DNA from: Acidocella aquatica
GTDB taxonomy: Bacteria > Pseudomonadota > Alphaproteobacteria > Acetobacterales > Acetobacteraceae
DNA length: 36,581 bases
Assembly: GCF_030160635.1 (NCBI RefSeq)
Contig: NZ_BSOS01000086.1
Span: 1-36,581 of the forward strand
Reading direction: 5' to 3'
Shown here: positions 1,171 through 35,972 of the stretch, one piece after another
How the letters are laid out: the number at the start of each line of letters is the position of its first letter
Position numbering within the stretch: position 1 is the stretch's first letter
Notes under the pieces: generated by a model
What the model was told of the DNA's origin: nothing
Database searches by the model: none
What the model saw: only the letters and a program-made list of their open reading frames with translations
Made by a program: the position numbers and the translations under genes

Positions 1171-1956
1171 ATGGTATATGATTTTCGATACGATACAAAG
1201 CGGGTTGTGATCAGCGGTTGCGCGTCCGGCATAGGGCGGGCCACTGCGGAACTATTGCTTCACTTCGGCGCCGAGGTACATGGGGTGGACCTCAGGGAGC
1301 CTGATTTGTGTTTGGCTTCCTTTACCGTCACCGATCTTGCGCTGCCGGACTCGATCAGCGCCGCGGTTGCGCAGATTGGCGGCCGGGTGGACGCGTTGTT
1401 CAACTGTGCCGGCGTGCCACCGACCCATGGCAAGCTCGACGTTCTCAAGGTAAATTTTTTGGGTACGCGTTACCTTACCAGTTGCGTGTTGGAGCATATG
1501 CATGAAGGTGCTGCCATTGTCAGCACGTCCTCGAATGGCGGAGCCGGGTGGCGCAACCATTTGGCAGAGCTGCGCGCCCTGCTTGCGGAAACGACATTCG
1601 CCGCCGGGATCGCCTGGCTGGAGCAAAATCTGGCGGGCATTGCCAATGCCTATAGTTTTTCCAAGGAGGCGCTGATTCTCTGGACCATGCACGAATCGGC
1701 CAGCCTAATAAAGCGCGGCATACGGATCAACTGCACCAGCCCTGGCGCTGTGCAAACCCCGATGCTCGATGAGATTGAGACCATCGTGGCACGGGACGTG
1801 ATTGACGCCGTAGCACAGCCGATCGACCGCAGGTCTGTTCCGCTCGAACAGGCCTGGCCGCTGGTGATGCTCAATAGCGATGCCGCTTCCTACATTAACG
1901 GGGCGGACCTTGCCGTTGACGGCGGCTTCGCGGCGGCGGCGCCATTCAGGCCTTAA
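1171..1956 (+). CDS. SDR dehydrogenase, 3-alpha-hydroxysteroid / coniferyl-alcohol dehydrogenase type
   Basis: This is a short-chain dehydrogenase of about 261 residues that should oxidise a secondary or primary alcohol with NAD(P). The cofactor glycine motif is SGCASGIG (residues 15-22), the active-site pair is Y161/K165 in YSFSK, and a Ser-rich strand precedes them (near 119-121). The SGCASGIG start, the insertion between the Ser and Tyr motifs and the late D-GG motif resemble Comamonas HsdA and the coniferyl-alcohol dehydrogenases. ATG at 1171 is preferred over GTG at 1168 because AGGAGG at 1161-1166 gives four bases of spacing. It stands alone on the plus strand, and its TAA shares four bases with the stop of the convergent crotonase. 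In the pathway it probably turns a hydroxylated ring into a ketone. The substrate is unknown. Confidence 0.85.
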   Translation: MVYDFRYDTKRVVISGCASGIGRATAELLLHFGAEVHGVDLREPDLCLASFTVTDLALPDSISAAVAQIGGRVDALFNCAGVPPTHGKLDVLKVNFLGTRYLTSCVLEHMHEGAAIVSTSSNGGAGWRNHLAELRALLAETTFAAGIAWLEQNLAGIANAYSFSKEALILWTMHESASLIKRGIRINCTSPGAVQTPMLDEIETIVARDVIDAVAQPIDRRSVPLEQAWPLVMLNSDAASYINGADLAVDGGFAAAAPFRP

Positions 1957-2810
1957 CCTGGCTTTTTAGGTATGTTGGCGAGGCTGGGGACGTTCGTAGG
2001 GTCCATGCCCCAGCCGAACACGCGGAAATTCTGCGAGTGGCAGAGGTGATGCAGCGAGAACGCTGCATCAATGGCGTTGGCCTGCCCCTGTATGTCGAGC
2101 GTCTTGTTGATCGCTTCCTTGGCCAGTTTGAGCGCGAAAGCGGGCTTGTCGGCGATCTTTTTGGCCATCTCGAGCGTGAAATCCTCGAGATTGGCACGTT
2201 CCACCACATGGTTGACCATACCGAGCCGCCATGCCTCGTCGGCGCTCCAGCTATCAGCCGTGAACAGAAACTCCTTGGCCTTGCGCGCGCCAAGCTCCCA
2301 GGGATGCGCCAGCCATTCCACGCCCGAGACGCCGAAATTCACCACGGGGTCGGAGAACAAAGCGTCCTTGGAGGCGATAATGATGTCGCACACAAAGGCG
2401 AAAATCAGCGCGCCCGCAATGCATTTGCCCTGCACGGCGCAAATGGTCGGTTTGGAAATGTTACGCCAGCGCCGCGCGGTTTCAAGGTAAGCGTCCTTCT
2501 CGGCAGCGTACCACCCATGTGTCCCCGGCTCCTGGAATCCGCTCCAGTGCCCCACTTTATGTTGCTCCGCCTGCACCCGTGCCTGGTATTCCTCCACCGT
2601 CTCAGCGATATCATGCCCGGCCGAGAAATGTTTACCGTCGGCAGCAAGAATAATGACCTTGACAGTGTCATCGTAGAGCGCACGGGTAAAGGCGTCGTTC
2701 ACCTCAAAGATCATTTGCGGATTGATCGCGTTGTACTTATCTGCGCGTGCAAGCACGATGCGTGCGACATGCGGGGTGGGGGTCTCGTAGCGGATCAATG
2801 GCGCGTTCAT
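1953..2810 (-). CDS. Crotonase-fold (enoyl-CoA hydratase/isomerase family) protein lacking both hydratase glutamates
   Basis: A 285-residue crotonase with the oxyanion-hole segment GKHFSAGHDI and the core CIAGALIFAFVCD. In a gapless motif comparison with rat enoyl-CoA hydratase, the Glu144 position is Ile and the Glu164 position (QPEI) is Val within DPVV. Simple hydration is therefore doubtful, and a crotonase that cleaves C-C bonds or isomerises is possible. A roughly 40-residue insertion follows the oxyanion motif (EEYQARVQAEQ onwards). The C-terminal part keeps AIDAAFSLHHLCHSQN, which is closely matched in the second crotonase of this window (26022-26915). It is the last gene of the minus-strand operon and its ATG overlaps the ligase stop by four bases. 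Family membership is sure; the reaction is not. Confidence 0.88.
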   Translation of the reverse strand: MNAPLIRYETPTPHVARIVLARADKYNAINPQMIFEVNDAFTRALYDDTVKVIILAADGKHFSAGHDIAETVEEYQARVQAEQHKVGHWSGFQEPGTHGWYAAEKDAYLETARRWRNISKPTICAVQGKCIAGALIFAFVCDIIIASKDALFSDPVVNFGVSGVEWLAHPWELGARKAKEFLFTADSWSADEAWRLGMVNHVVERANLEDFTLEMAKKIADKPAFALKLAKEAINKTLDIQGQANAIDAAFSLHHLCHSQNFRVFGWGMDPTNVPSLANIPKKPG

Positions 2811-4462
2811 GCAGTCATTCCTTCGGCTATTTCGCGCGCACGGATGCGCAGCGCGTCTTTTTTCACTTTGCCAGACGGCACGCGCGGGAGATCGTCTATC
2901 ACCACAACATGCTCCGGGTATTTCTGCCGGGCCAGCCCGGCGCCGTCCAGGAAGCGGCGGATCTCAGGGAGATCGATGCTTTGGCCGGGACGGAGGATGA
3001 TGAAGGCGCAGCCTTTTTCGCCGGTTGTTGCACTTGGCATAGCAACGATGGCAACCTCTGCTACAGCCGGGTGCAGATAGAGCAGGTCCTCGACTTCCTT
3101 AGGGCTGATATTCTCGCCTGAGCGGATAATGACGTCCTTTTTGCGGCCGGTAATGACGAGATAATTGTCATGCACGCGGCAGCCGAGATCACCCATGCGA
3201 AAAGATCCGTCCGGCTCGAAATTCCCCTCGTTATCGGCAGGGTGCAGGTAACCCACGAACAGGCCAGGCCCGCGCGCGAGGATTTCACCCTCCTCGCCAT
3301 CTGGTACCGGCTCGCCTGATACCGCATCAACGATACGTATTTCGGTGGGATACCGGATCACGCCGTCGGTATCGGCGCCGCGTTCGGCCTCGGCACCGCT
3401 GGTGATTCCAAGCGTCGCGCAGGTCATCTCGGTGGAACCGTAGGCACGGAAGAAGAGACATTTTGGGAAGGTGGCGCTGGCCTGATGGATCAGGCTCGGC
3501 GAAACGGTAGTGCCGCCACAGAAGAACAATCGCAGCGTCGAGAGCGCGCCGGGTTTCGTCCTGGCCGCGTCGAGGAATTGCTGTAGGAAGGGAGTGGCAC
3601 CGCCGCTCACGGTACAGCCGTTGTCCTCGATGCAGCGAATGCCGTCATCTGCTGCCCAGATATCGATGAGCACACTGCGTGAGCCGCGGACCCAGGGCAT
3701 GTCGAACGCCCAGAAAGCGCCGGTGATATGACTTACCGGCGAGGGCATAAACACAACATCGTCGGGTCCAATGCCCCAGGCCTCGCCCATCGTGCGGACG
3801 CGGTGGTCGAAAGCGTAATGCATGTGCATAACCCCCTTGGGCTTTCCAGTGGTGCCGGAGGTGTACATCACCATCATGACGGCACTCGGGTCCACCTGCG
3901 GCAACTCGACCTCAGTGGCCGGGGGACCAGCGAGCGTCTGCTCCCAGGTGAGGGCGCCTGCGCCGCGCACGACGATAACGTTTTCAAGCGCCGGTAGGCT
4001 GGGTTGTAAAGCGCCCAGCATGGCGGCGTGGTTGTGCTTGCGAAAAATCTCGGGCGAGAAGACCAGTTTGGCCGTGCAATCGGCGAGGATGTAGCCGAGT
4101 TCGGATTCACGATAGATCGGTGGAATCGGGTTGATAATCAGCCCGGTCATGCGCGCTGCCAATGCGAGCACGGCGCTCTCAATCCAGTTGGGTAGCTGAA
4201 AGGCCACGACATCGCCGGGCTTGAGGCCGCGGCGCAGAAAGAAGCCGGCTAAACGCAGCGCCTGGTTCCATGCCTCGCCACGGGTCAGATGCGTTGTACC
4301 CTCGATCAGCAGGATACGCGACGGGTTTTCGGCCACTGCGGCACGTGCGGCATCCACCAGCGTGGAATTACGCCAATGGCCTTCGGCCAGATAGCGCTTG
4401 GCAAGGTCCTCGGCCCAGCGGGTCTGCCATCCGCCGGGATCGGTTTTCATGGTCCAGCTCAT
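2807..4462 (-). CDS. AMP-forming acyl-CoA synthetase, cyclohexanecarboxylate-CoA ligase-like
   Basis: A 551-residue ANL-superfamily ligase that activates a carboxylic acid to its CoA thioester through an acyl-adenylate. Visible motifs are TSGTTGKPKG (residues 201-210, ATP phosphate binding), YGSTEM, the GDLG motif, and the C-terminal SGK with the likely catalytic Lys532. Length and the N-terminal style (GWQTRWAEDLAKRYLAEGHW) suggest the alicyclic/short-chain ligases such as AliA, but this is recognition by eye. A longer open frame reaches 4531, yet ATG at 4462 is chosen because AGGAG lies five bases upstream and the mini-ORF before it ends in an ATGA overlap with this start. It is followed, with a four-base overlap, by the crotonase gene. 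Confidence 0.88.
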   Translation of the reverse strand: MSWTMKTDPGGWQTRWAEDLAKRYLAEGHWRNSTLVDAARAAVAENPSRILLIEGTTHLTRGEAWNQALRLAGFFLRRGLKPGDVVAFQLPNWIESAVLALAARMTGLIINPIPPIYRESELGYILADCTAKLVFSPEIFRKHNHAAMLGALQPSLPALENVIVVRGAGALTWEQTLAGPPATEVELPQVDPSAVMMVMYTSGTTGKPKGVMHMHYAFDHRVRTMGEAWGIGPDDVVFMPSPVSHITGAFWAFDMPWVRGSRSVLIDIWAADDGIRCIEDNGCTVSGGATPFLQQFLDAARTKPGALSTLRLFFCGGTTVSPSLIHQASATFPKCLFFRAYGSTEMTCATLGITSGAEAERGADTDGVIRYPTEIRIVDAVSGEPVPDGEEGEILARGPGLFVGYLHPADNEGNFEPDGSFRMGDLGCRVHDNYLVITGRKKDVIIRSGENISPKEVEDLLYLHPAVAEVAIVAMPSATTGEKGCAFIILRPGQSIDLPEIRRFLDGAGLARQKYPEHVVVIDDLPRVPSGKVKKDALRIRAREIAEGMTA

Positions 4463-4596
4463 GTGTGCTCCTGGCCCGAGAGGACGCTTGGCGTTTCCAC
4501 GCCGTGCAACAGGCCGCCGGCGCCGTACCATTCGTTGAATTCCGCCTCCATGCCCGGCGTGGGATTGAAGGGTATGATTTGAAGAGCGTTCGACAT
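4459..4596 (-). CDS. 45-residue mini-ORF, half-domain similar to a dimeric alpha/beta-barrel (EthD-like) protein
   Basis: A short ORF between the Gfo/Idh gene and the CoA ligase. It starts four bases after the upstream TGA, with GAGGA about nine bases ahead. It ends TGA inside the ATG of the ligase (ATGA overlap). Its middle, NPTPGMEAEFNEWY followed by a Val-x-Thr-Pro turn, matches the strand-helix start of EthD/dimeric barrel proteins and the second repeat of the protein at 31241-32005 (IPGRHDEYQTWY). It stops before the second half of such a domain would begin. It may be a truncated remnant kept for translational coupling, or a genuine small protein. The function is unknown. Confidence 0.5.
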   Translation of the reverse strand: MSNALQIIPFNPTPGMEAEFNEWYGAGGLLHGVETPSVLSGQEHT

Positions 4597-4600
4597 ATAT

Positions 4601-5680
4601 TCAGTCCTCGAGAATCACGCGCCGACCGGTTTCGGCGGCGCGGTCTATCGCGTCAAGTACGCGGGTCAAACGGACAGCCGCATCGAAATTAGGTACAATG
4701 CGGGTTGCGTTGCGAATATCGGCGGCGCAGGCGCCCCAGAGTTCCGCGACATTAGCAGGGGCATCCACGAACAGCGGGACTATCGACTCTGGTTGCGGCG
4801 CTGCTGCTGGTATGGTGGCAACTGTGAGCTGGCCGCATTGATAGCCGCCCGGATGCGTTCCGGTGATGGTGAGCGTGTCCTTCGTGCCCCGCAGCACGAA
4901 GCACAACGGCGTATCGACAGTGCCGCCCACGACCTCCTGCGAGGAGACGCAGCCGCTAGAGTGACGGCCGATCACCAGCACATGGTCGGCACACAGCTGC
5001 TCGACGGTGTCATTGGTCCCGTAAATGTGCACCTCATCGCGCGTTGTGGTGGTGCGGGCGTCGATCTCGGCATAGCCGCCGATGACCGCCTCGATGGCGG
5101 CGATGGTGTGGCCATCCGGGATGGTGGAGAGCGTGGCACCGTTGCGTTTATCCTCAGGATAAACATAATTAGGCAGAGTCAGCGCCCCCCAGCCGCCACA
5201 ACCGGACACCACGCTCAGCTTAAGCGGCCGACCGATGGCGCCCTCACGGACCAGTTTCGCGGCATGGCGCACTGCCGGGGCGAGCGGACCTTGCGTACCG
5301 ATGGCTACGTGCACCGGGTTATCGCGGGCGGCCTCAGTCATTTCCTGCGCTTCGGCGAGATCGCGACCAAGCGGCCACTCGCAATAGACATGCTTGCCCG
5401 CGGCCAGGGCGGCCAGCACAATGGCCCGGTGTTCAAGCACCCGCACCGTGACGGCCACAATGCCGACATCCGGGTCGTTCACCAGTGCCGCTATATCCGT
5501 ATACGCTTTTGCCGCGCCGAACGCAGCGGCGGCGGCGTCAGCGCCTTGCTGCGTGCGGTTGAGCACCGCGCTGATCTCCAGCCCTGGCAGCGCGCGGATG
5601 GCAGGTAGATGTGCAAGTTGCGCCCAGCCGCGCTCTGCGTTGGCGCCTGCAACCCCGATCCGGAGCGCCACTGTGCTCAC
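4601..5680 (-). CDS. Gfo/Idh/MocA-fold oxidoreductase-like protein
   Basis: A 359-residue protein with an N-terminal Rossmann motif (IGVAGANAERGW, residues 8-19) and the two-domain layout of the Gfo/Idh/MocA family. These usually oxidise sugars or cyclitols with NAD(P). The family EKP motif reads CEWPLG (residues 100-105), so the usual catalytic lysine is Trp102, as in several non-catalytic or divergent members. GTG at 5680 is chosen as start. It overlaps the TGA of the upstream acyl-CoA dehydrogenase (GTGA) and has GAGGG a few bases before it; the longer frame to 5770 runs into that gene. It sits inside the CoA operon, so it may act on a cyclic alcohol or ketone intermediate or have a binding role. 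Confidence 0.8.
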   Translation of the reverse strand: MSTVALRIGVAGANAERGWAQLAHLPAIRALPGLEISAVLNRTQQGADAAAAAFGAAKAYTDIAALVNDPDVGIVAVTVRVLEHRAIVLAALAAGKHVYCEWPLGRDLAEAQEMTEAARDNPVHVAIGTQGPLAPAVRHAAKLVREGAIGRPLKLSVVSGCGGWGALTLPNYVYPEDKRNGATLSTIPDGHTIAAIEAVIGGYAEIDARTTTTRDEVHIYGTNDTVEQLCADHVLVIGRHSSGCVSSQEVVGGTVDTPLCFVLRGTKDTLTITGTHPGGYQCGQLTVATIPAAAPQPESIVPLFVDAPANVAELWGACAADIRNATRIVPNFDAAVRLTRVLDAIDRAAETGRRVILED

Positions 5681-6855
5681 CGCGCCCTCGGCAGCTTGAG
5701 CAGGTGGTCCGCGGTGATCTCGCGCTGGATCTCGCTGGTGCCTCCGGCGATGCTGAACACCCAGCTCCATAGATAATCATAGGTCCATGGGTGAGCCGTG
5801 CGGTCCCCGTCGAATTCCAGGAAGCTCCAGCCGAGGATTTCTCCCACGGTTTCGCTGAGTGCCTTGTGCGTCGCCGTTACGATCAGCTTCATCAGGGACC
5901 CGTTGGGCCCGGGTTCGCCGGTACGGTCGCTCTCGGTGATATGCGCCAGCGTCATCGAGCGGATAGCCAACGAATCGGCCTTCAGGCCCGCAAGCTTCTG
6001 CGCGATGCCGTCATCCTCGAGGGCGAACTTGCCGGAGTCCAGGCGCACTTTGCCCGCAAGGTCGATGGCGCGGCAGACACGCTCATATAGTTCAAGCTGG
6101 TCGCCGATGAAGCCGAGCCCGCGCTCGAATGACAGGGTGGAGAGGGCCGTGGACCAGCCGCCGTTGATCTCACCGACGACACTCGTTTTCGGGATGCGGA
6201 CATCGTCATAGAACACCGTGTTTACATGCTCGTCCTGCAGCATGGTGCGTATCGGTTTGATGTCCAGGCCGGGCAGCTCCATGTCGCAGATCAGCCAGGT
6301 GAGACCCTTATGTCGCTCGGAGGCGGGGTCCGTGCGGATCAGCAGTTCCTGATAATCCGCATATACCGCATCCGTGGTCCACATCTTGGCGCCGTTGACG
6401 ACGATGACACCATCCTCGACGCGGCCGCGGGTTTTAAGCGAGGCGAGGTCCGAGCCGGCATTTGGCTCCGAGAATCCCTGGCACCAGAGTGAGTCACCCG
6501 AGAGGATTCGTGGCAGATGAAAGGTTTTCTGCTCCGCTGTGCCGCGCGCCGCGATCGTCGGGCCCGCATGCATCAGCGCGATATAGGTGGTGTTGATATA
6601 GTGTGGCGCCTGGGCGCGGGCGAGTTCCTCGTACCAGATCACCTGTTGCAGGCCGGAGAGGCCGAGCCCGCCATACTCCTTTGGCCAGGCGACACCAGCC
6701 CAGCCATGCTCGAACATTTTGCGTTGCCAGGCACGATCGAAGGCAGCCGCCTCCGGGCCATGCGCCGGCCGTGCGTGCCTGGGGACATTGGTGGAAAGCC
6801 AGGCGCGGGCCTGTTCGCGGAATTCACGGTCGGTGTCGGAATATCGAAGGTCCAT
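5677..6855 (-). CDS. Acyl-CoA dehydrogenase, large (catalytic-type) subunit
   Basis: A 392-residue flavoprotein with N-terminal, middle and C-terminal ACAD domains. Visible family motifs are GFSEPNAGSDLA in the middle domain and the C-terminal IAGGTSEIQR. The glutamate found in YEGT of medium-chain enzymes is Gly here. A helix-G motif LSFERG carries a Glu where isovaleryl-CoA dehydrogenase has its base. It follows the small ACAD gene by five bases on the same strand, an arrangement like the actinobacterial FadE pairs that form alpha2beta2 heterotetramers on bulky cyclic CoA esters. It probably introduces the alpha,beta double bond for the crotonase. Pairing with the neighbour is inferred from gene order. 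Confidence 0.9.
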   Translation of the reverse strand: MDLRYSDTDREFREQARAWLSTNVPRHARPAHGPEAAAFDRAWQRKMFEHGWAGVAWPKEYGGLGLSGLQQVIWYEELARAQAPHYINTTYIALMHAGPTIAARGTAEQKTFHLPRILSGDSLWCQGFSEPNAGSDLASLKTRGRVEDGVIVVNGAKMWTTDAVYADYQELLIRTDPASERHKGLTWLICDMELPGLDIKPIRTMLQDEHVNTVFYDDVRIPKTSVVGEINGGWSTALSTLSFERGLGFIGDQLELYERVCRAIDLAGKVRLDSGKFALEDDGIAQKLAGLKADSLAIRSMTLAHITESDRTGEPGPNGSLMKLIVTATHKALSETVGEILGWSFLEFDGDRTAHPWTYDYLWSWVFSIAGGTSEIQREITADHLLKLPRAR

Positions 6856-6860: not shown

Positions 6861-7835
6861 TCAGTCCTGCACCGTAGCATCGACAAGGCGGCTCAGCAGC
6901 GCCCGCTTGCCGCCAAACAGCTTGCCCAGCAGCATCGCCTGTTTAAGAAGCAGATGGGCATTATGCTCGTCGGTGACGCCAATGCCGCCGTGCAGCTGAA
7001 TGTTGGTGTCTGCGTTCATAAGCGCGGCCTGGTTGCATAGATGCTTGGCGGCATCGAGATGCAGCGCGACATCGCTGCGCTGCTCGGCCATCGCCGCGGC
7101 GGCGTACCAAAGCTGGCTGCGCGCCACTTCGGCGCGCAGCGCCATGTCTGCGCAAGGATGGCGGACCGCCTGATAGGCGCCGATTTTGCGTCCGAAGGTC
7201 TCGCGGACCTTGGCGTATTCGACGATCAGGTCGAGCGCTGCCTCGGCCAGCCCGAGTAACATCGCCGCGGTGCCGAGTTCACCCATCTGCCAGATATGTT
7301 CGCCGTTGGTGTAGGCTATTGCGGTGCCGGGCGGGCTGTCCAGCAGGCGCATTGAGCAGGCAGGCGCGAGGGCGGGGCGTTCCGTTGTTTGGCCGCCGGC
7401 GAGAGCGAAAAGCTGGGCGCCTTCACGCGTCACCTGCAGCGCGTAGGCCGCATCCGGCGCGCCCAGCAGGCGCAGGCCAGCACCGTCCGGCACCAGCAAA
7501 GCAACACCTTCACTGCCTGCAAGCAAAATGGCGCGGAGGTCCGTATCGGTGCAGGCGAGTACGGCCAGCGCTTGTGTGAGGACATCCACCGGGCCGGATT
7601 GCCGGCCGGCTTCGCGGAAAAACAACGCATGTTCAACGGGGCCCAACCCGCTGCCGCCATCGGCTTCAGGCAAGGTGAGCGCGAACCAGCCCATTTCGGC
7701 CAGCGTGCCGCGCAATACCGCGTTCATATCGGCGCAGCCTGGCTTATGCAGCCGGTCGATAGGCATGGCGCTCGCCAGGAAATCTGCGGCGGCGTTTGCG
7801 ACTTCTATCTCGTCGCGGTCAAGAGCGAGGAACAT
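6861..7835 (-). CDS. Acyl-CoA dehydrogenase, small partner subunit
   Basis: A 324-residue ACAD-like protein, shorter than the typical 380-400. The N-terminal helical domain is present (DEIEVANAAADFLAS), the middle beta domain is reduced, and the C-terminal domain carries VRETFGRKIGAYQAVRH and the QLHGGIGVTDEHNAHLLLK stretch that helps bind FAD. There is no GTSEIQR-type tail. This is the profile of the non-catalytic partner in heteromeric FadE/ChsE-type dehydrogenases. ATG at 7835 is preceded by a modest GGGAGAG. About 240 bases separate it from the SnoaL-like gene upstream, which could hold a promoter, though I see no clear boxes there. Confidence 0.85.
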   Translation of the reverse strand: MFLALDRDEIEVANAAADFLASAMPIDRLHKPGCADMNAVLRGTLAEMGWFALTLPEADGGSGLGPVEHALFFREAGRQSGPVDVLTQALAVLACTDTDLRAILLAGSEGVALLVPDGAGLRLLGAPDAAYALQVTREGAQLFALAGGQTTERPALAPACSMRLLDSPPGTAIAYTNGEHIWQMGELGTAAMLLGLAEAALDLIVEYAKVRETFGRKIGAYQAVRHPCADMALRAEVARSQLWYAAAAMAEQRSDVALHLDAAKHLCNQAALMNADTNIQLHGGIGVTDEHNAHLLLKQAMLLGKLFGGKRALLSRLVDATVQD

Positions 7836-8075: not shown

Positions 8076-8456
8076 TTAAAGTTTCAGGGGGGTGGGCTGA
8101 AAGGCGGTGAGCCGCCATGCCCCGTCCGTTTCCGTCCAGACGGTGAGCACGCGGTTGTCGAGCCACTTTGCGATGCCCTCGACCGTTACATTGGAGGTCA
8201 TCTGCCCGGTCAGCAGCGCCACGCCGCTGGCCAAAATGACCACCTGCTCATCGCGCCAATCGATGGTTAGATAGGTGATCCGCCCGGCCGCCATCTTCGC
8301 CAGATAGGCCGGCTTGTCGTCGACCTGCCCGGTGGCGTGGCTGAAGGAGAGGCGCGGATCGATCAGCGCCTCCAGGGCACCCGCATCATTGCTCAGCATC
8401 GCAGCGCAACGGCGTTTTTCCGCTGCAAGCACTGCTTGTCCCACATCATTGCTCAT
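8076..8456 (-). CDS. SnoaL-like / NTF2-fold small protein
   Basis: A 126-residue protein with the cone-shaped NTF2/SnoaL (DUF4440-like) pattern: an N-terminal helix (VGQAVLAAEKRRCAAMLSND), then the DPRLSFSHATG strand, then a repeated beta pattern ending in GAWRLTAFQPTP. Members act as isomerases, dehydratases, cyclases or hydrolases, or only bind ligands. Here it probably handles the product of the P450, whose stop codon lies two bases upstream. ATG at 8456 is taken as start rather than the longer frame at 8495, which would overlap the P450 coding end. The exact role cannot be told from the sequence. Confidence 0.75.
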   Translation of the reverse strand: MSNDVGQAVLAAEKRRCAAMLSNDAGALEALIDPRLSFSHATGQVDDKPAYLAKMAAGRITYLTIDWRDEQVVILASGVALLTGQMTSNVTVEGIAKWLDNRVLTVWTETDGAWRLTAFQPTPLKL

Positions 8457-8458
8457 GG

Positions 8459-9950: not shown

Positions 9951-10154
9951 ATGGTAACCAAGCTAGTCGTGGAATGGCCCCTGTGCGACGGTAATGGCGT
10001 CTGCACCATCGAGGCGCCGGAATTGCTGCTGATCGATGATAATGACAATCTGCAGGTGCTCAACGAAATCGTCGTAAACAGCCTCCTGGCCAAAGCCGAG
10101 GCGGCCGTGCGCGTTTGCCCGAAACGCGCCCTCAAACTCGTGACCGAGGGCTGA
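9951..10154 (+). CDS. P450-type ferredoxin, probably [3Fe-4S]
   Basis: A 67-residue acidic ferredoxin that would carry single electrons to the P450s. Cysteines are at 12, 18 and 56, giving C-x5-C and a late CP. The residue that would be the fourth ligand in a [4Fe-4S] cluster is Asn15. This fits the C-x2-X-x2-C-(n)-CP pattern of three-cysteine ferredoxins linked to bacterial P450s, in which X varies and is often not cysteine. ATG at 9951 follows GGGAGG by five bases. It is the only ferredoxin in the window, so both P450s probably share it with the reductase at 33979. It opens the plus-strand operon. Confidence 0.9.
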   Translation: MVTKLVVEWPLCDGNGVCTIEAPELLLIDDNDNLQVLNEIVVNSLLAKAEAAVRVCPKRALKLVTEG

Positions 10155-10162
10155 ACCGGCCG

Positions 10163-14962: not shown

Positions 14963-14963
14963 A

Positions 14964-18512: not shown

Positions 18513-18527
18513 AACCGGGAACCCAGA

Positions 18528-21795: not shown

Positions 21796-21821
21796 GCGAA
21801 TTTCCTCTTCATCGTTGGCGT

Positions 21822-23795: not shown

Positions 23796-23797
23796 CG

Positions 23798-24862: not shown

Positions 24863-24867
24863 GGTCC

Positions 24868-29011: not shown

Positions 29012-30975
29012 GCGGCGGTCTCCGTCGTTTCGGTCGCGCGCCGGAAATCATATTCCGCCGTGTCGAATTTTTCAGTGAGATTGCGGTAGTCCACCAGCCG
29101 CCAGGGGGAATTCTGCGTCACCCTGCCGGCGGCATTCTTGTACCAGTTATCGACGCCCGGATGAGACCAAACCATCTTGCTATGGGCGTCATCAACCTTC
29201 TTCTGGTAGTCCCAGAAAGGCTCGCTCCTGACCTCGACCGCAGCGCTTGAGGTTTCGATCATCTCGCGCATGGCCTGCATGATGTAGCGGATCTGGCATT
29301 CGGAGTGGAAGACCGCGCTGCCGCCATGTGCCAGATTGGTATTGGGTCCGTAAATAAGAAACAGGTTCGGGAAGCTCGGAACCGTGATGCCCAGATGCGC
29401 GCGCGGGTCATCCTCGCCCCAGCTTTCGCGGATGGTGAGCCCGTTCCGGCCCTCGATATGCATCGGCGTCAGCATTCGGCGCGCCTGGAAGCCGGTGGCC
29501 AGAACCAGCACATCAACCTCATGGCGCAAGCCATCCTTGGTGACGATGGCGTCCTTCTCGATATGGTCGATATGGTCGGTGATCAGTTCCACGTTGGGAA
29601 GCGTGAGCATCCGGTACCAATGGTTGTCCCTCAGCATCCGCTTGCCGTAGGGCGGGTAAACTGGCGTCGCCTTACGGATCAGCTCGGGGTCATGGTTCAC
29701 CTCATGGGCAATATGCGCCTCAAGCTCCACGCGTACTTTGGCGTTGGCGGCATTAAGGGAGCGCTTCTGGTCGTGCCAGTTGGGGTCGCGTTGCAACATG
29801 CCGTGGAAGCCGTCAGAGGACGACCAAAATAACTGGAAGCGAAACCATTTGGCGTAGAACGGGATATTCTTGAGAACCCATTTTTTGTCGTCGGTCACGT
29901 GCGCGAAATAAAGCGGGTTGCGCATCGCCCAGTGTGGTGAACGCTGGAAGATCCTCAATGTCTTGACGATGGGGGCGATGGCTGGGCCGACCTGCATGCC
30001 GCTTGCCCCGGTGCCGATCATGCCGACGCGGGCACCCTCAATGGCCGCCTCATGGTCCCAGCGGGCAGTGTGGAAAGCCGGCCCCTCGAAATTTTCAAGT
30101 CCCGGAATGGTCGGCATTTGCGGCCGGTTGAGCTGGCCGACCGCGCTGATGACCACATTGGCGGTGAGATCATGCAAAGCTCCTTCGGCGGTACGGGTGT
30201 GCACGCGCCATAGTGCGGCGGCATCGTCCCAAACCATGCTCAGGACCTCTTCGCTGAAGCGGATCTTCTGCTCGAGGTGGAAAGCTTCCGCGTTACGCTT
30301 GATGTAGTGGAAAATCTCATCGCGCTTAGCGAAGTAATGATCCCAGTCGTGATTGATGTTGAACGAATATGAGTAGAAATGATTGGCGGTATCCACGCCA
30401 CATCCGGGATAGCTGTTTTCGTACCAAGTGCCGCCGACCGTGTCATTCTTTTCGATGATGGTGAAGGGAATGCCGGCTTCCTGCATCTTGATTGCCATGC
30501 CAACGCCGGAGAAGCCAGCGCCGATGATCAATGCATGGAAATGTTTCAGCGTGTCCGGTGCAGGCGGTTGGCGCCACAGCACGGTCTTGGGGTCATTACC
30601 AGCAAGGTCCATTTCCTCCAGCACCAGCGGATAATATTCGGGCGGGACATGCTGGCCGGTGCAGACGTCGAGCATCTTTGGTAGCAGGTCCATCGGCGGC
30701 GTGACCGGCCAAGGGCGCCCGGTCTGCGCATAATCGGCCAGGATCGCGGCTACGGCCTCCCGGAGTTCAGCCTTCAACGCCTCCGGTGTCTCCTCGTGGA
30801 AGCTCCATGGGCCCTTTATGTAAGGCCGGACGCGGTCGAGCCATGCGGGATCGCCTCCGAGGTGGATGAGCACCATCAGCAAAGGCGCGATGTCAGCCGC
30901 TTTCAACGCCTCACGCAGATGTACGGGATCGCCCACGAGGGCTTTGAGAGTTTTTACGTCGTCCAAACGCGTCAT
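29008..30975 (-). CDS. Baeyer-Villiger monooxygenase with N-terminal extension (paralogue)
   Basis: A 655-residue type I BVMO. The FAD motif GAGFSG (152-157) follows an N-terminal extension of about 145 residues that shares the PLLM-x3-H-x-G motif with the other BVMO here. The core is GGTWYENSYPGCGVDTANHFYSYSF, and the fingerprint FEGPAFHTARWD fits F-x-G-x3-H-x3-W-(P/D). The NADPH motif GTGASG is normal, unlike in the copy at 21822. It would oxidise a cyclic or aryl ketone to an ester or lactone. It is the first gene of the minus-strand operon; ATG at 30975 has only a weak ribosome site. The regulator is probably the TetR at the operon end. Confidence 0.93.
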   Translation of the reverse strand: MTRLDDVKTLKALVGDPVHLREALKAADIAPLLMVLIHLGGDPAWLDRVRPYIKGPWSFHEETPEALKAELREAVAAILADYAQTGRPWPVTPPMDLLPKMLDVCTGQHVPPEYYPLVLEEMDLAGNDPKTVLWRQPPAPDTLKHFHALIIGAGFSGVGMAIKMQEAGIPFTIIEKNDTVGGTWYENSYPGCGVDTANHFYSYSFNINHDWDHYFAKRDEIFHYIKRNAEAFHLEQKIRFSEEVLSMVWDDAAALWRVHTRTAEGALHDLTANVVISAVGQLNRPQMPTIPGLENFEGPAFHTARWDHEAAIEGARVGMIGTGASGMQVGPAIAPIVKTLRIFQRSPHWAMRNPLYFAHVTDDKKWVLKNIPFYAKWFRFQLFWSSSDGFHGMLQRDPNWHDQKRSLNAANAKVRVELEAHIAHEVNHDPELIRKATPVYPPYGKRMLRDNHWYRMLTLPNVELITDHIDHIEKDAIVTKDGLRHEVDVLVLATGFQARRMLTPMHIEGRNGLTIRESWGEDDPRAHLGITVPSFPNLFLIYGPNTNLAHGGSAVFHSECQIRYIMQAMREMIETSSAAVEVRSEPFWDYQKKVDDAHSKMVWSHPGVDNWYKNAAGRVTQNSPWRLVDYRNLTEKFDTAEYDFRRATETTETAA

Positions 30976-31240: not shown

Positions 31241-32005
31241 TTAGCCCTTGCCTGGATAGACCGAAAGATCGCCACCATAGGCAATGCCGCCGGGCCAGAA
31301 TTTGGTGCCGCTGATCTTGCGGAAATAATGCACCGTGCGCGCCGTCGAGCCTGCGGTCGAGCGTGGCTGCATGGCAATGCCACTGGGGCTGTGGCCTAGC
31401 GCGCGGGCAGCAAAATCCGTGATCGTGAAGGCGAGATCGTCGGTCTGCTGCGCGGTCATCACCAGTTGGTCGCCTGGGCAGTAGCGGCGAGGCTCTATCT
31501 GAAGGCTCGAGAGTTCGCCGCGGATCATTGCCACGTGGCCGGGCACGTTCGCCACTTCGACGCTATGAACATTCTCGTACCAAGTTTGATATTCATCGTG
31601 GCGGCCCGGTATGTAGTTGCCGAGAAGCACGCTGATGCCGGAGAATGGCTGGTCGCGCTGCCAATTCGGGCTGCCTTTCCAATCACCGAAGAGCCGGTAG
31701 CTGTAAAGCCGTTCAGTATCATCGGCGGCAATGAGCCCGGCATCGCGGGCCTCGGCGACGAGCGGGCCCAGAGCCGGCAGGTCGATCACCGGGTTCGGCA
31801 GATCAAATTCATATACGCTCAGGTATCGCCAGCATTGCTGGGCGTCCGGCATGATCTGCTCTTTGGTGACCTCGAAGCGATCCGCGTAGCGCAAGCCGCG
31901 CAATCCACCCAGCGCCTCGCGGTGCGGGCCATCGAACCAGGCGGCATATTCATCAGTTTTGTCCGCCGGCACGTTATGCAGGTGAATGGATGTATATAGC
32001 GCCAT
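31241..32005 (-). CDS. Tandem dimeric alpha/beta-barrel (EthD-like) protein
   Basis: A 254-residue protein with two repeats of the same short fold. The first runs from about residue 3 (SIHLHNVPADKTDEYAAWF), the second from about 125 (VLLGNYIPGRHDEYQTWY). Each has the strand-helix pattern ending in DEY-x2-W, followed by a Val/Leu-rich turn. This is the dimeric alpha-beta barrel family that includes EthD, linked to P450-dependent ether breakdown but of uncertain activity. ATG at 32005 has GGGAGA about five bases upstream. It diverges from the alpha/beta hydrolase at 32215. The mini-ORF at 4459 looks like half of one of its repeats. Confidence 0.7.
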   Translation of the reverse strand: MALYTSIHLHNVPADKTDEYAAWFDGPHREALGGLRGLRYADRFEVTKEQIMPDAQQCWRYLSVYEFDLPNPVIDLPALGPLVAEARDAGLIAADDTERLYSYRLFGDWKGSPNWQRDQPFSGISVLLGNYIPGRHDEYQTWYENVHSVEVANVPGHVAMIRGELSSLQIEPRRYCPGDQLVMTAQQTDDLAFTITDFAARALGHSPSGIAMQPRSTAGSTARTVHYFRKISGTKFWPGGIAYGGDLSVYPGKG

Positions 32006-32180
32006 GGTTTCTCCCTTTCAACGCTTTGTCGTTCGTCAGCTTGATGAGACATTGGCGTCAGTCTCCCGGCGCAGCAACGTGAGGGACGTGGCGCGGCGTA
32101 GATATCGCCCGGGTGGTGTGCGCCTGCATCGCCGGAGCGGAAACTATCCGGCGTCAGGTGACAACGCCATCTGGGCGCGG

Positions 32181-32200
32181 CAACACATATGCAGGTGTTG
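32181..32200. promoter_or_regulatory. Inverted repeat in the divergent region before the hydrolase
   Basis: CAACAC at 32181-32186 and GTGTTG at 32195-32200 are perfect arms with an eight-base spacer, 15 bases before the hydrolase ATG at 32215. The 210-bp divergent region must hold promoters for both flanking genes. I could not pick convincing -35/-10 pairs. Confidence 0.25.
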
Positions 32201-32214
32201 TGGAACAGGAACCG

Positions 32215-33057
32215 ATGGAGCGTATGGAATTCGCAGGCGCTGGCGTTACCATTGTAGCGGATGCAGCGGGAGCGGCAGATGCCCCACTCGTGTTGTTTCT
32301 GCATGGCGGCGGGCAGACCCGGCAAAGCTGGGGCAAGGCGCTTGAGGTAGCGGCTGAACGTGGCTACCGCGCGGTCTCGCTGGATCTGCGCGGCCATGGT
32401 GAAAGCGGCTGGTCGGATGATGGCGCCTACAGTATGCCGCGTTTCGCGGATGATGTGCGCAACGTGATTGCCGCACTGGGACGGCCTCCCGTGATCGTCG
32501 GCGCTTCGCTCGGCGGCCTTATCGGAATACTGATTGCTTCGGTGCCATCGCCTGAGGTCCGCGGGCTTGTTCTGGTGGATGTGGCGGTTCGCCTCGAAAC
32601 TGAAGGTACGCGCGAGATCGGGGCTTTCATGCAAAGTGCCCCCGATGGATTTGCCTCGCTGGATGATGCAGCGGATGCGGTATCGGCCTATCTACCGCAC
32701 CGGACCCGCCCCAAAGATACGTCCGGCCTGATGCGCAATTTGCGGCTGCGCGAGAATGGGCGCCTTCATTGGCATTGGGACCCCGCCTTTACCCGCTACA
32801 ATCCCGAAACCGCCAAGCTTACCGCTAACATCTTCGCGCAGGCCGCCGCTTCATTGACGGTTCCGGTGCTGCTGATCCGCGGCGGCCGCAGCCGTGTTCT
32901 CAGCGCCGAAGGCGTTGCCGAGTTTCGCGAGCTCGTGCCGCATGCGGAATATGTCGATGTGGCAGGTGCTGATCATATGGTGGCAGGTGATGCAAATGAC
33001 AGCTTCAATGACGCGGTTCTGGGATTTCTGGCGCAGCACGCCCATGCGGCACAGTGA
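32215..33057 (+). CDS. Alpha/beta hydrolase (lactonase / C-C hydrolase type)
   Basis: A 280-residue alpha/beta hydrolase of the 3-oxoadipate enol-lactonase/epoxide hydrolase group. The oxyanion motif is LHGGGQTRQSW, then SLDLRGHGESGW. The nucleophile is Ser in GASLGG and the His is in AGADHMVAGD. No lipoprotein or signal peptide is visible. A longer frame from 32113 exists, but ATG at 32215 has AGGA a few bases upstream. It lies divergent from the dimeric-barrel gene and upstream of an SDR. It probably opens a lactone made by one of the BVMOs; hydrolysis of another C-O or C-C bond is possible. Confidence 0.88.
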   Translation: MERMEFAGAGVTIVADAAGAADAPLVLFLHGGGQTRQSWGKALEVAAERGYRAVSLDLRGHGESGWSDDGAYSMPRFADDVRNVIAALGRPPVIVGASLGGLIGILIASVPSPEVRGLVLVDVAVRLETEGTREIGAFMQSAPDGFASLDDAADAVSAYLPHRTRPKDTSGLMRNLRLRENGRLHWHWDPAFTRYNPETAKLTANIFAQAAASLTVPVLLIRGGRSRVLSAEGVAEFRELVPHAEYVDVAGADHMVAGDANDSFNDAVLGFLAQHAHAAQ

Positions 33058-33112: not shown

Positions 33113-33165
33113 TGATGATCGCGCCATGGCCGGCACGCTACGCTGGCGGATAAGAGGAAACGCAA

Positions 33166-33969
33166 ATGACAGAGTCCGGATTATTTGATCTCAAGGGCCG
33201 GGTGGCGATGGTCACCGGCGCAGGACAAGGGGTGGGGCGCGGCATTGCCCTGACCTTGGCGGCCTACGGAGCGGGCGGGATCGTCGTCAATGATTTCCAT
33301 GCCGATCGCGCGGCGGCGGTGGTAGCCGAGATTGAGACGCTGGGGGTCAGGGCTACGGCGATGGTGGCCGATGTGGGAAATCTGGCGCAGGTGCGGGCGG
33401 CCGTTGAAGCTGCCGAGGCGGCTCTCGGGCCAATCGAGATTCTCGTTAACAACGCAGGCAATGGTGGACCAGAGGGGTTTCCCCCCGAAATGCCGCTGTT
33501 CTGGGAAACCGACCCGGCGCGCTGGTATCGCTTCCTGCATGTTAATTTGTTTGGCGTGATGAATTGCTGCCACACGGTGCTGCCGGGCATGGTGGCGCGG
33601 TGCTATGGCCGCGTTGTCACCATCACCTCGGACGCAGCGCGTAGTTTGGAGCCGCGGCAAGCGGATTATGCGGCCGCCAAGGCAGGGGCGGCGGGTTTTA
33701 TGCGCGGCCTGGCGGGGGATGCAGCGCGCTTCGGAGTTACCGCGAATTGCATCGCCATTGCCACCATCCGTCCAGTAATGCCGCCGGCTGAGCTGGAGGC
33801 GTTTCTGGCATCGGACCGCACCAAGGCCCAGCTTGCGCGCTATCCGATTCGCCGGTTTGGCCTGCCGGAAGATATCGCCGGCACTGCCCTCCTGCTCTGT
33901 TCCGATGCAGCCGCCTGGATCACTGGCCAGACATATCCGGTGAATGGCGGCTACAGCGCCGCGCTTTGA
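33166..33969 (+). CDS. Short-chain dehydrogenase/reductase
   Basis: A 267-residue SDR with TGAGQGVGRG as cofactor motif, VNNAGNGG after strand 4, and the catalytic YAAAK preceded by TSDAARS. Asp in VNDFHADRA suggests NAD(H). The 3' motif VNGGYS is usual. ATG at 33166 has AGAGGA about seven bases before it. It is convergent with the ferredoxin reductase nine bases downstream. In context it should oxidise an alcohol formed by P450 hydroxylation or released by a hydrolase; a 3-hydroxyacyl-CoA role is also possible, since no classical 3-hydroxyacyl-CoA dehydrogenase is present. Confidence 0.88.
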   Translation: MTESGLFDLKGRVAMVTGAGQGVGRGIALTLAAYGAGGIVVNDFHADRAAAVVAEIETLGVRATAMVADVGNLAQVRAAVEAAEAALGPIEILVNNAGNGGPEGFPPEMPLFWETDPARWYRFLHVNLFGVMNCCHTVLPGMVARCYGRVVTITSDAARSLEPRQADYAAAKAGAAGFMRGLAGDAARFGVTANCIAIATIRPVMPPAELEAFLASDRTKAQLARYPIRRFGLPEDIAGTALLLCSDAAAWITGQTYPVNGGYSAAL

Positions 33970-33978
33970 TGCAGCTGA

Positions 33979-35175
33979 TTATGCCGAGGCGGCGATAGCT
34001 TCGGCCCAGCTCGGGTCGTTCTCCAACATCTTGCGGTATTTCAGAAGCTTGCCAGTGGCGGCCAGCCCAAGCGCCGCCGTCAGGCGCTCGTCGCGCCGGT
34101 AGAGGGCGATGAATTTCTCTTCCTCAGGCGAGCCGAACACGAAGCGCACCTCGTCATGCGCCACAGGCGTGCCGACGAGCTGGAATTTCAGCCCGTATTG
34201 GTCGGACCAGAACCATGGCACCGGCGCGTAGGCGCCGGGGTTTGGCGCGCCGCCCTCGGCCAGCAGGCGTTTGGCGGCGTGCTCGCCCTGGCGCACGGCA
34301 TTGTCCCAATGCTCGACGCGCCGGAATTCGCCGTAGCGCCCGTTGGGCCAGCGTGCGATGTCCCCCGCCGCAACGATGCCAGGGGCGGCTAGGCAGGTTG
34401 CGTCGCACACCACGCCGTTCTCCAGCGTCAGGCCGGAACCTTCCAGCCAGCCGGTGTTGGGAATGACGCCGATGCCAAGTACTGCGACATCGGCCTCGAC
34501 GACGCTACCGTCAGTCAAGTGCAGGCGCTCCAGGCGGTCAATTCCCTCGAATGAGGCAGCGACGACGCCCAGACGCATATCGACGCCGCGGCGGCGATGA
34601 ATGTCGGCGATCACCATCGCAATCGTCGGCCCGAGCACGTGCGCGGCGGGCGCCACCATCTCGACCATCGTTACCGGCAATCCGAGTTTGCGCGCCGAGG
34701 CCGCGGCCTCCTGGCCGATGAAGCCGCCACCGACGATGACGACCTTGCAGTCGAGCCGGGCGAAATCGTCACGCAGGGCAACGGCATCATCCAGCGTGCG
34801 AACCACGTGCACACCCTTCATGTTGGCACCAGGCAGATGGCGCGGCGCGGCGCCGGTGGCAATTACGATGCCGTCAAACGCTTCGCGGCGCCCATCGGCC
34901 AGAGTGAGCGTGCGGGTGGCGGCATCCAGGCTCATTGCACGGCAGCCAAGCCACCATTCCGCATCATCCAGCAGCTTGTCTACAGCTAGCGTGGTTTTCT
35001 CAAGCGGCCATTCCCCGCGGGCGATTTCCTTGGAGAGCGGCGGGCGGTCGTAGGGGCGGTGCTGCTCATCGCCGATGATGACCAGGCGGCCGGTGAATCC
35101 TTCCCGGCGCAGGGTCTCGGCTGCGTTGAGGCCAGCAAGCGAGGCACCGACAATGGCGATGGAGTCTAGTTTCAT
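33979..35175 (-). CDS. Ferredoxin reductase (FAD-dependent, P450 redox partner)
   Basis: A 398-residue NAD(P)H-dependent flavoprotein of the putidaredoxin/terpredoxin reductase family. It has the FAD motif IVGASLAGLNAAE, the NADH motif VGGGFIGQEAAASA, and the FAD-ribityl motif AAGDIARWPNG followed by VEHWDNAVRQGEHAA, all in the usual order. It would pass electrons from NAD(P)H to the ferredoxin at 9951 and on to the two P450s. No other reductase of this kind is in the window. The frame can start at a TTG at 35187, but ATG at 35175 begins the normal N terminus (KLDSIAIVG). The ribosome site is weak. Confidence 0.92.
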   Translation of the reverse strand: MKLDSIAIVGASLAGLNAAETLRREGFTGRLVIIGDEQHRPYDRPPLSKEIARGEWPLEKTTLAVDKLLDDAEWWLGCRAMSLDAATRTLTLADGRREAFDGIVIATGAAPRHLPGANMKGVHVVRTLDDAVALRDDFARLDCKVVIVGGGFIGQEAAASARKLGLPVTMVEMVAPAAHVLGPTIAMVIADIHRRRGVDMRLGVVAASFEGIDRLERLHLTDGSVVEADVAVLGIGVIPNTGWLEGSGLTLENGVVCDATCLAAPGIVAAGDIARWPNGRYGEFRRVEHWDNAVRQGEHAAKRLLAEGGAPNPGAYAPVPWFWSDQYGLKFQLVGTPVAHDEVRFVFGSPEEEKFIALYRRDERLTAALGLAATGKLLKYRKMLENDPSWAEAIAASA

Positions 35176-35207
35176 ATGTTTGTTCAATCTTAAAAGGGGA
35201 GTGAATG

Positions 35208-35972
35208 TCAGGGGGCGGTCGCGTGGCCTTGCCGCCAGCCTCGGGCCTGGGCGAGGTCCGCCGCGGCGGCGCGGCGGAGCAGGCCGCCATCGCTGCTAAT
35301 CGGCAAAAACTGGATGCCAGCCTGCGCGAGGGTCTGAGCATTGGCCATGCCGAGCGAGGCGCATCCGGAAATGACGCGGTGCCGGCGGCAGGCCTCACCG
35401 ACACGCAGCACCGCTGTCAGCACCTGTTCCGGCATCACCAGGGCGGCGCCAAGGCCAAGCGACAAGGCAAGATCGACGGGTCCAACAAACAAGCCGTCAA
35501 CGCCCGGCGTAGCCGCGATCTCGTCCAGGTTTTCCATGGCCTCGGCTGTTTCGATCATCACGAAGCAGAGCGGCTCCGGCGCAGCAGCGCCGGGTGCGGC
35601 GTAATAATTGCGCACGGGGCCGAAAGAGCGGATGCCATGCGGCGGGTAGCGTGTGGCCTCGGCGGCAATGCGGGCCTGTGCCGCCGTAGAGACCATGGGC
35701 ACGATGACGCCGAATGCGCCCAGATCCAGCGCGCGCATGATCTGCATCGGGTCGTTCCAGCCCACGCGGACCATGGAGCGGGTGCCACCCAGGTCGAACG
35801 CCTGAATGACGGGCAGCAGGCTGTCCCAGGAGATGCCGCCATGCTGGGTGTCCAGGATCACCCAGTCGTAGCCCGCCTTGCCCATGATTTCAGCGGCGAC
35901 GTTGCAGTCCAGAGCGATCCAGCAGCCAAAGGATGGCCGTCCCGCAGCCGCGGCTTCCCGTATTTTATCCAT
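35208..35972 (-). CDS. HpcH/HpaI family aldolase
   Basis: A 254-residue TIM-barrel aldolase of the 4-hydroxy-2-oxo-acid type (HpcH/HpaI/YfaU). The active-site His44 (DTQHGG), Arg69, metal ligands Glu141 (MIETAEAM) and Asp167 (GPVDLALSLG) are in the expected places. It should split a 4-hydroxy-2-oxoacid into pyruvate and an aldehyde with a divalent metal. ATG at 35972 has GAAGAG upstream. It is the first of a two-gene minus unit with the ferredoxin reductase, 32 bases downstream. It may act on the 2-oxoacid formed by the FAD oxidase at 10163, though that link is inference. Confidence 0.9.
   Translation of the reverse strand: MDKIREAAAAGRPSFGCWIALDCNVAAEIMGKAGYDWVILDTQHGGISWDSLLPVIQAFDLGGTRSMVRVGWNDPMQIMRALDLGAFGVIVPMVSTAAQARIAAEATRYPPHGIRSFGPVRNYYAAPGAAAPEPLCFVMIETAEAMENLDEIAATPGVDGLFVGPVDLALSLGLGAALVMPEQVLTAVLRVGEACRRHRVISGCASLGMANAQTLAQAGIQFLPISSDGGLLRRAAAADLAQARGWRQGHATAP

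Follow-up and report, generated by a model that had tools for sequence, protein, structure and literature searches.

A conserved gene cluster of Acidocella aquatica unites Baeyer-Villiger monooxygenases with an EchA20-type hydrolase, a candidate locus for polycyclic isoprenoid catabolism

Which compound does a bacterium take apart with two cytochromes P450, two Baeyer-Villiger monooxygenases (BVMOs) and a large set of acyl-CoA enzymes, and do the genes for these proteins belong together? We addressed this question for a stretch of 36,581 nt from Acidocella aquatica (the window), which is the whole of contig C86 (NZ_BSOS01000086.1) of a draft genome of 137 contigs and 4.03 Mb (G000; further G-numbers denote other genomes and C-numbers contigs). 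An earlier note on this DNA had described a self-contained catabolic island for an alicyclic or terpenoid substrate, bracketed by insertion sequences (IS). About 91% of the window is occupied by 32 protein genes (overlaps counted twice), whose families were assigned by scanning every protein against Pfam and by checking motifs. The proposed substrate was partly right: the evidence favours a polycyclic isoprenoid and a combination of oxygenative and hydrolytic ring opening. In our judgement the window probably holds most of a conserved supercluster for polycyclic isoprenoid catabolism, with a core that would pair Baeyer-Villiger oxidation with EchA20-type hydrolytic ring opening. Candidate substrates, judged by the gene families present, would be steroid-, triterpenoid- or diterpenoid-like compounds.

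The core is an operon on the reverse strand. BVMO2 (29008..30975) is its first gene, followed by ACD, an ADP-forming acyl-CoA synthetase (26912..29011; CoA_binding_2, Succ_CoA_lig and ATP-grasp_5 matches, SHTAALAG motif), the crotonase ECH2 (26022..26915), by homology an EchA20-type ring-opening hydrolase, the large and small members of a steroid-type acyl-CoA dehydrogenase (ACAD) pair, ACADa2 (24868..26025) and ACADb2 (23798..24871), BVMO1 (21822..23801) and, as last gene, the short-chain dehydrogenase/reductase SDR2 (21124..21825; assigned by Pfam). These genes are joined by six consecutive 4-nt overlaps, one of which depends on the chosen start of BVMO1: its open reading frame (ORF) runs to 24353, TTG 23801 was taken as the start, and starting at the next ATG, 23795, would open a gap of 2 nt. 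The fingerprint of type I BVMOs, FxGxxxHxxxW[P/D], is present in both proteins, as FAGVRVHTSRWP in BVMO1, which also has FAD/NAD-binding and FMO-like matches, and as FEGPAFHTARWD in BVMO2.

A profile search of genome contigs with ACD returned 52 loci. Synteny was examined in 23 of them (L075-L097; L-numbers denote loci); in the other 29 (L098-L126) ACD identity is at most 36%. At 13 of the 52 loci ACD reached 62-83% identity, and three of these 13 belong to same-genus genomes (G353, G321 and G362; 94-98% complete), referred to as congeners below. ECH2 adjoins ACD at all 13 loci and ACADa2 comes next at 12, the contig of the remaining one ending there. BVMO2 lies directly upstream in 10 (not in L081 and L086; L085 starts too near the contig edge to judge), and BVMO1 downstream in five. 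Among the records with the core are those of Sphingomonas psychrolutea, S. solaris, Novosphingobium malaysiense and Sphingomonadaceae PASS1, as well as metagenome-assembled genomes (MAGs) listed under the names Brevundimonas and Caulobacter. The core is also present, at 67-83%, in L079, probably a misnamed or mixed MAG, which bears the title Actinobacteria bacterium 21-64-8. Elsewhere in the region, a BVMO2 homologue occurs in PASS1 (69%) and N. malaysiense (54%). The BVMO-ACD-ECH2-ACAD arrangement was not found in the ten examined loci with an ACD of 41-51% (L087, L089-L097); in one of them, L092, a BVMO2 homologue lies some 6 kb away. Of 20 other genomes of the genus, three matched BVMO2 with an E value of 1e-150 or lower, at 82-83% identity. 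ACD was found at E 1e-180 in three genomes, the source included, of a family sample of 397 to which the three congeners do not belong, the other two matches being 49-51% identical. BVMO2 had been tried as search marker and was replaced by ACD, since in seven other-genus genomes no other window gene reached 40% nearby. The best matches in plasmid searches were 51% for BVMO2 and 38% for BVMO1.

Along its full length ECH2 shares 82-83% identity with the crotonase that N. aromaticivorans pNL2 and Sphingobium TomTYG64 encode in their steroid clusters between genes of the IpdB and IpdC types, and ACADa2 (71-72%) and ACADb2 (51-53%) match the ACAD pair downstream in the same clusters. Three core genes therefore match a steroid C/D-ring cluster, and the statement that the island has no steroid nucleus genes had to be given up. 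We assigned the names IpdA, IpdB, IpdC and EchA20 in those clusters from gene order, products and PMC5380842; the database records themselves speak of CoA transferase subunits, nitronate monooxygenase and enoyl-CoA hydratase. According to excerpts of PMC5380842, EchA20 hydrolyses the five-membered steroid ring D, after which IpdAB opens ring C. In pNL2, TomTYG64 and Vibrio alfacsensis pVa1 the steroid C/D-ring (HIP) cluster is ordered ipdA-ipdB-echA20-ipdC-ech-acad-acad-thiolase; the same run was also found in Novosphingobium P6W, and Novosphingobium EMRT-2 has a version without the VOC gene and the thiolase. Common to HIP cluster and core is an EchA20-type hydrolase followed by the same ACAD pair. 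However, the core has none of IpdA, IpdB, IpdC, the second crotonase and the thiolase, and its trio is flanked by an ADP-forming ligase and BVMOs instead; IpdA, IpdB and IpdC had no match in the window at E 1e-3. In the trees, core and steroid EchA20s interleave in a group of 13 rows (support 97/97), and the core ACADs, those of the Caulobacter MAG (L084) excepted, group in a clade next to the steroid ACADs. This tentatively suggests that both EchA20 groups share the same chemistry and have been exchanged. A plain enoyl-CoA hydratase was considered for ECH2 and rejected on account of the identity to steroid EchA20 and the ACAD-pair context.

Does the conservation extend beyond the core? With the 32 window genes as queries and thresholds of at least 50% identity and 40% coverage, 17 of 32 recur in 52 kb of the G353 contig around the core. 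The counts were 11 for S. psychrolutea (82 kb), 14 for PASS1 (102 kb), 13 for N. malaysiense (77 kb), 13 for the Brevundimonas MAG (62 kb) and 15 for the Caulobacter MAG (42 kb); the sizes of these five other-lineage regions are nominal, and some loci overlap. Control stretches of 80 kb contained one of the 32 genes in G353 and none in S. psychrolutea, PASS1 and N. malaysiense, whose controls share a contig with the core; the two MAGs (G484, G485) are without control. Conserved synteny, the check that the earlier note had proposed, thus holds (11-17 of 32 genes in six genomes versus 0, 0, 0 and 1 in the controls). The island is a real, conserved catabolic supercluster, and both gene content and synteny support its P450, BVMO, lactone and CoA logic. 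Outside the core, gene order is shuffled among relatives. Further genes in their clusters encode KstD, SMP-30, a Rieske oxygenase, a cyclase of family PF04199 and an amidohydrolase resembling D-aminoacylase. Self-contained the island is not: the KstD, Rieske oxygenase and SMP-30 genes of the G353 cluster lie outside the window, and homologues of KstD and SMP-30 are on the separate contig C66 of the source genome. The PF04199 protein, which may hydrolyse a ring or a lactone, is absent from the window but occurs repeatedly in the vicinity of the relatives' core and also on C66 (L163, L164, L158, L077, L079, L084, L142). A Rhizobiaceae MAG (L093) carries a GFO-ACADa1-ACADb1-TE-DUF4440 block (ACADa1 79%) with no BVMO match in 22 kb.

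Both ends of the window carry transposase pieces. At the left, a remnant (293..929, forward strand) matches DDE_Tnp_1 in two overlapping frames; at the right, the start of a DDE_5 transposase (36222..36581, forward) is cut by the contig end. Both are flanks outside the pathway. The right-end 422 bases match 12 places in the source genome, self included: one other copy is 88% identical over 313 bases, two are 71-73% identical over about 200-220 bases, and eight cover only 61-92 bases. Among at most 25 own-genome loci compared, bases 17-84 recur at 98.5% at the ends of contigs C66 and C45. The transposases at the two ends are of different families, one a remnant and the other truncated, so that two copies of one IS family, as in a composite element, were not found. 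An IS-bounded transposon was accordingly rejected, given that the window is an entire contig with two unlike transposase families and a multi-copy right end. As the window is a whole draft contig with repeat-rich ends, the bracket marks an assembly break and no proven element boundary. Of the IS bracket the transposase pieces remain, at places that partly reflect just where the assembly stopped, and the island is not defined by them. The names ISAs1 and IS701 are compatible with the DDE_Tnp_1 and DDE_5 pieces, yet no search returned either.

If such IS traffic had merely piled up catabolic cargo, no single pathway would be encoded. IS pieces at both contig ends, a separable four-gene module (module B, below) and broken BVMO pieces elsewhere in the genome agree with this explanation, but the re-clustering of the gene set in six genomes and the ACD-ECH2 order kept at 13 of 13 loci do not, and we regard it as very unlikely. 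The broken BVMO pieces have internal stops and lie near contig ends (C66:129-629, 45% to BVMO2; C106:18922-19692, 38%), the one on C106 adjoining a P450a-like fragment. A second P450b, 77% identical, is located at C45:3122-4372 (L062), and the end of C45 shares a 67-base repeat with the left end of the window. In all, the 4-Mb source genome has 19 P450b matches and 19 Ring_hydroxyl_A matches, versus 1 and 2 in the same-genus genome G190.

What we observed is the set of genes, the operon structure, the conservation and the homology with the trio of steroid C/D-ring clusters; beyond this, a route can be drawn in which enzyme roles, reactions and substrate are read from homology. All 12 gene types that had been listed before, 24 genes in total, were recovered, and no transporter family matched any of the 32 proteins, in agreement with the earlier note. 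The first steps would fall to P450a (8459..9700, reverse; p450, haem motif FGHGMHFCIG; 74% in L082/L083) and P450b (13299..14555, forward; p450), which may receive electrons via the three-Cys ferredoxin Fdx (9951..10154, forward; Fer4_15; C12, C18 and C56; 78% beside P450a in L082/L083) and the ferredoxin reductase FdR (33979..35187, reverse; Pyr_redox_2, Reductase_C; 78% in the G484 region). Together with SDR1 (1168..1956, forward; adh_short_C2; 65% in G353, 57-60% in two further cluster regions), SDR2 and SDR3 (33166..33969, forward; adh_short_C2), they would yield alcohols, ketones or a carboxylate. A CoA ligase, ACADs, a hydratase and Ltp/DUF35 retro-aldol cleavage could then trim a side chain, with a ring ketone as the product. 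The two CoA ligases proved to be one AMP-forming enzyme, ACS1 (2807..4531, reverse; AMP-binding; TIGR03208 cyclohexanecarboxylate-CoA ligase at 376 bits, below the cut-off of 792), and the ADP-forming ACD. The first ACAD pair comprises ACADa1 (5677..6855, reverse; Pfam; 72-87% in five of six cluster regions) and its partner ACADb1 (6861..7835, reverse; Pfam; 59-76% in five of six).

BVMO2 and BVMO1 would convert ring ketones into lactones, to be opened by the alpha/beta hydrolases ABH1 (12199..13143, forward; Abhydrolase_3, GESAG motif), ABH2 (18501..19574, forward; Abhydrolase_3) and ABH3 (32113..33057, forward; Abhydrolase_1; 70% near module B in G321:C102), or by SMP-30 in relatives. ACD is predicted to turn the seco acids into CoA esters. 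ECH2 may then hydrolyse a cyclic beta-keto-acyl-CoA ring in a retro-Dieckmann reaction, the ACAD pair feeding the opened product to beta-oxidation. ECH1 (1953..2810, reverse; ECH_1; 4-nt overlap with ACS1; 88% in G353, 74-79% in three more cluster regions), a distant EchA20 relative, is 43.6% identical to the pNL2 EchA20 over 266 residues, so that a second ring hydrolase in the window is possible, and ECH1 could open a second ring. An HpcH/HpaI-type aldolase (35208..35972, reverse; HpcH_HpaI; TIGR02311 at 153 bits, below cut-off) and thioesterases, among them a 4HBT-type protein (11670..12107, forward; Pfam), might finish or recycle the products.

Eight genes go beyond the earlier inventory: the 4HBT thioesterase, the DUF2889-like protein and the DitZ-like amidohydrolase AMH discussed below, and five others. 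GFO (4601..5770, reverse; GFO_IDH_MocA; 70% in G353) is a Gfo/Idh/MocA oxidoreductase whose true start is probably later than the ORF start, as the ORF overlaps ACADa1 by 94 nt. A DUF4440 protein (8076..8495, reverse; Pfam) is 73% identical in G353. The GlcD-type FAD-linked oxidase (10115..11581, forward; FAD_binding_4, FAD-oxidase_C; glcD at 250 bits, below cut-off) probably starts near 10160, its ORF overlapping Fdx by 40 nt. A TIM-barrel protein (20311..21111, reverse; AP_endonuc_2) recurs at 58-70% and an EthD-like protein (31241..32005, reverse; named by eye, no Pfam match) at 75-85%, each in four cluster regions. The regulator gene is of the TetR type (19577..20215, reverse; TetR_N; 65% in the G484 region).

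KstD is a feature of the 9,10-seco steroid route, and a KstD-type dehydrogenase, encoded on C66 here and in the cluster of congeners, could add a double bond next to the ring ketone. The KstD-type gene lies inside the cluster of G353; G321 and G362 have KstD pieces at contig ends bearing neighbouring cluster genes on either side, consistent with a single gene. C66 has homologues of 74% and 63%, and the window has none; a relative of solved structure is 7p18 (283 bits for the 74% copy). At the catalytic positions of KstD1, which we take to be Tyr119, Tyr318, Tyr487 and Gly491, all four aligned residues are kept in the in-cluster copies of G353, G321 and G362 and in the 63% copy on C66. Among 19 aligned KstD-type copies, Tyr487 is kept in 12 and replaced by Ala in three and by Ser in four (L142 13209-14918, L143, L058, L160, L166, L168, L169); proteins with either replacement may catalyse another reaction. 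Homologues of 60-68% were present in all six other-lineage genomes tested, in five of them on the contig of the core, the nearest copy about 20-37 kb from ACD; in S. psychrolutea a single contig of 286 kb carries both the core and KstD.

Among the 32 window proteins no KshA or HsaC-type extradiol dioxygenase family was found by Pfam, and contig C8 of the same genome has matches to both KshA_C and TIGR03213. There, a separate 9,10-seco/HIP set (L185, L186, L190) comprises KshA (195 bits), an HsaA-like protein (named by eye), a BphC-type dioxygenase and IpdA (57% to the pNL2 protein), IpdB (54%), EchA20 (72%) and IpdC (77%). The window was therefore rejected as the canonical steroid locus, which sits on C8. 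It might still serve true steroids by a side route, a sub-case of the polycyclic isoprenoid reading in which the BVMOs cut ring D or the side chain, the EchA20-type hydrolase and ACADs act on HIP intermediates, and IpdAB, KshA and HsaC are supplied from elsewhere. Such a supply exists on C8, and C66 has a luciferase-like gene. However, KshA_C and TIGR03213 had no match in any of the three core-bearing congeners; among 41 sequences at E 1e-10, IpdA and IpdB matched C8 only (IpdC matched C8 and gave one 30% match); and a second EchA20 would be redundant in this genome. We hold the side route to be somewhat improbable.

Diterpenoids come into view with AMH and module B. AMH (17092..18423, forward; Amidohydro_2) has DitZ as its best solved relative (8uyr, 303.7 bits over residues 1-404), ahead of PtmU3 (96 bits), presumably a thioesterase. 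Module B consists of P450b, a DUF35/ChsH2-C OB-fold protein (14558..14962, forward; OB_ChsH2_C, zf-ChsH2), the lipid-transfer-protein/thiolase-like Ltp (14889..16124, forward; Thiolase_C_1; best solved relative 6ok1, a lipid-transfer protein, 164 bits) and the DUF2889-like protein (16129..16857, forward; 20.0 bits, below the 25-bit cut-off, and 46% identical to a protein annotated as DUF2889 in the corresponding position of Sphingobium RAC03). An AlphaFold model of the latter, made from the single sequence without alignment, had a mean pLDDT of 31.8. The module is intact in G362:C24 and G321:C102 (65-74%) and occurs on a RAC03 plasmid (46-66%), where its neighbours encode a ferredoxin, an SDR, an ACAD, a crotonase and a CoA ligase; G353:C37 carries it without DUF2889. 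In G321:C102 it lies within about 12 kb of KstD, EthD, ABH3 and TetR homologues. Ltp and the zf-ChsH2/OB protein are encoded side by side, as in an Ltp-DUF35 aldolase. Ltp2-ChsH2-type side-chain aldolase systems likewise encode an Ltp and its DUF35/zf-ChsH2 partner beside a P450, but they include a MaoC partner, which the window lacks, the DUF2889-like protein following Ltp instead. DUF2889-like and Ltp genes adjoin in the window, in L129 (17394-18128), L057 and L058. The amidohydrolase beside the RAC03 module had no match to AMH at 33% or more. AMH and Ltp homologues adjoin on plasmids of Sphingomonas paeninsulae (72% and 46%) and Massilia putida (53% and 51%). In S. paeninsulae (L127, plasmid 475-520 kb) the 72% AMH homologue belongs to another kind of cluster, whose genes include an ACAD pair, DUF35 and DUF2889 genes, a thiolase, a nitronate monooxygenase and an AtuA-family gene.

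Could the locus encode a BVMO-based alternative to dit for resin acids of the abietane or pimarane type, again within polycyclic isoprenoid catabolism? With the dit abietane diterpenoid cluster it shares the DitZ-like amidohydrolase and the P450, Ltp-type and CoA-ligase classes, and some relatives are MAGs with NGEE or BOG in their titles. The dit cluster, however, has a DitA-type oxygenase and a ring-cleavage dioxygenase; excerpts of PMC13063091 describe DitA as central to the known pathway and DitC as the predicted ring-cleavage enzyme. Neither ring-hydroxylating oxygenase nor extradiol dioxygenase families were found among the 32 window proteins, and the window is centred on BVMOs. Resin acids thus appear an unlikely substrate.

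Several observations weigh against reading the window as most of one polycyclic isoprenoid pathway. None of the six cluster regions has Fdx, ABH2, ABH3, SDR3 or any gene of module B (P450b, DUF35, Ltp, DUF2889) at 50% or more, and in the congeners module B lies on other contigs; being away from the core in other lineages, it belongs less certainly to the same pathway and may serve another. KstD is outside the window, and the 74% copy on C66, the one nearest to the in-cluster gene of the congeners, has Ala at Tyr487. KshA_C scored 91-101 bits in three of the six other-lineage genomes and marginally in a fourth, so that a 9,10-seco route is possible there. The ECH2 tree leaves 13 of its 20 forks open and does not unite the core in a single clade. 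Finally, the G353 control stretches were mostly picked for P450/Ltp matches and are therefore non-random, leaning towards matches.

Small alicyclic monoterpenes such as camphor or cineole, which the earlier note had cited as precedent, share the P450-BVMO logic, and the nearest solved relatives of P450b are CYP101-type (4dxy and CYP101J2, 229 bits). But the pNL2 P450 match is 36% identical, and the camphor and cineole precedents are weaker than the steroid and diterpenoid links through EchA20 with the ACAD pair, KstD-type genes and DitZ. Larger fused rings are indicated by EchA20, by the KstD genes of homologous clusters, by the two pairs of ACADs, by Ltp/DUF35 and by an AMH that resembles DitZ, and a monoterpene substrate seems highly improbable.

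Bacterial degradation genes for triterpenoids, hopanoids and many diterpenoids, large carbon pools of plants and soil, are poorly known. Tentatively, the locus might represent a second bacterial fused-ring isoprenoid route, independent of 9,10-seco cleavage and built from KstD-primed ketones, two BVMOs, an ADP-forming ligase and EchA20-type hydrolases. If so, it could accept 4,4-dimethyl skeletons, such as those of triterpenoids, hopanoids and resin acids, in which aromatisation of ring A is impossible. The conserved BVMO and EchA20-type operon offers a searchable marker and a small enzyme set to assay, and the core suggests that parts of the steroid C/D-ring pathway are reused outside the 9,10-seco route.

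No description of a BVMO-EchA20 cluster was found in the parts of the open-licence PMC literature covered, outside which most subscription papers fall, so that an earlier description is possible. Two known systems come close in logic. The pdc progesterone cluster of Caenibius tardaugens, compared by description and not by sequence from excerpts of PMC12239570, likewise has a steroid-acting BVMO in an alphaproteobacterium, within four genes and 4.6 kb. In SAR202, BVMO opening of sterol- or hopanoid-like matter has been predicted (excerpts of PMC5395668), with the same succession of P450, dehydrogenase, BVMO, lactone and beta-oxidation; those enzymes are type II and FMN-dependent, and the excerpts make no mention of EchA20. 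Among known systems we would place the Acidocella locus as a variant form of polycyclic isoprenoid catabolism, set apart less clearly from the camphor/cineole kind than from the 9,10-seco and dit systems, each of which has a feature that the window was found to lack.

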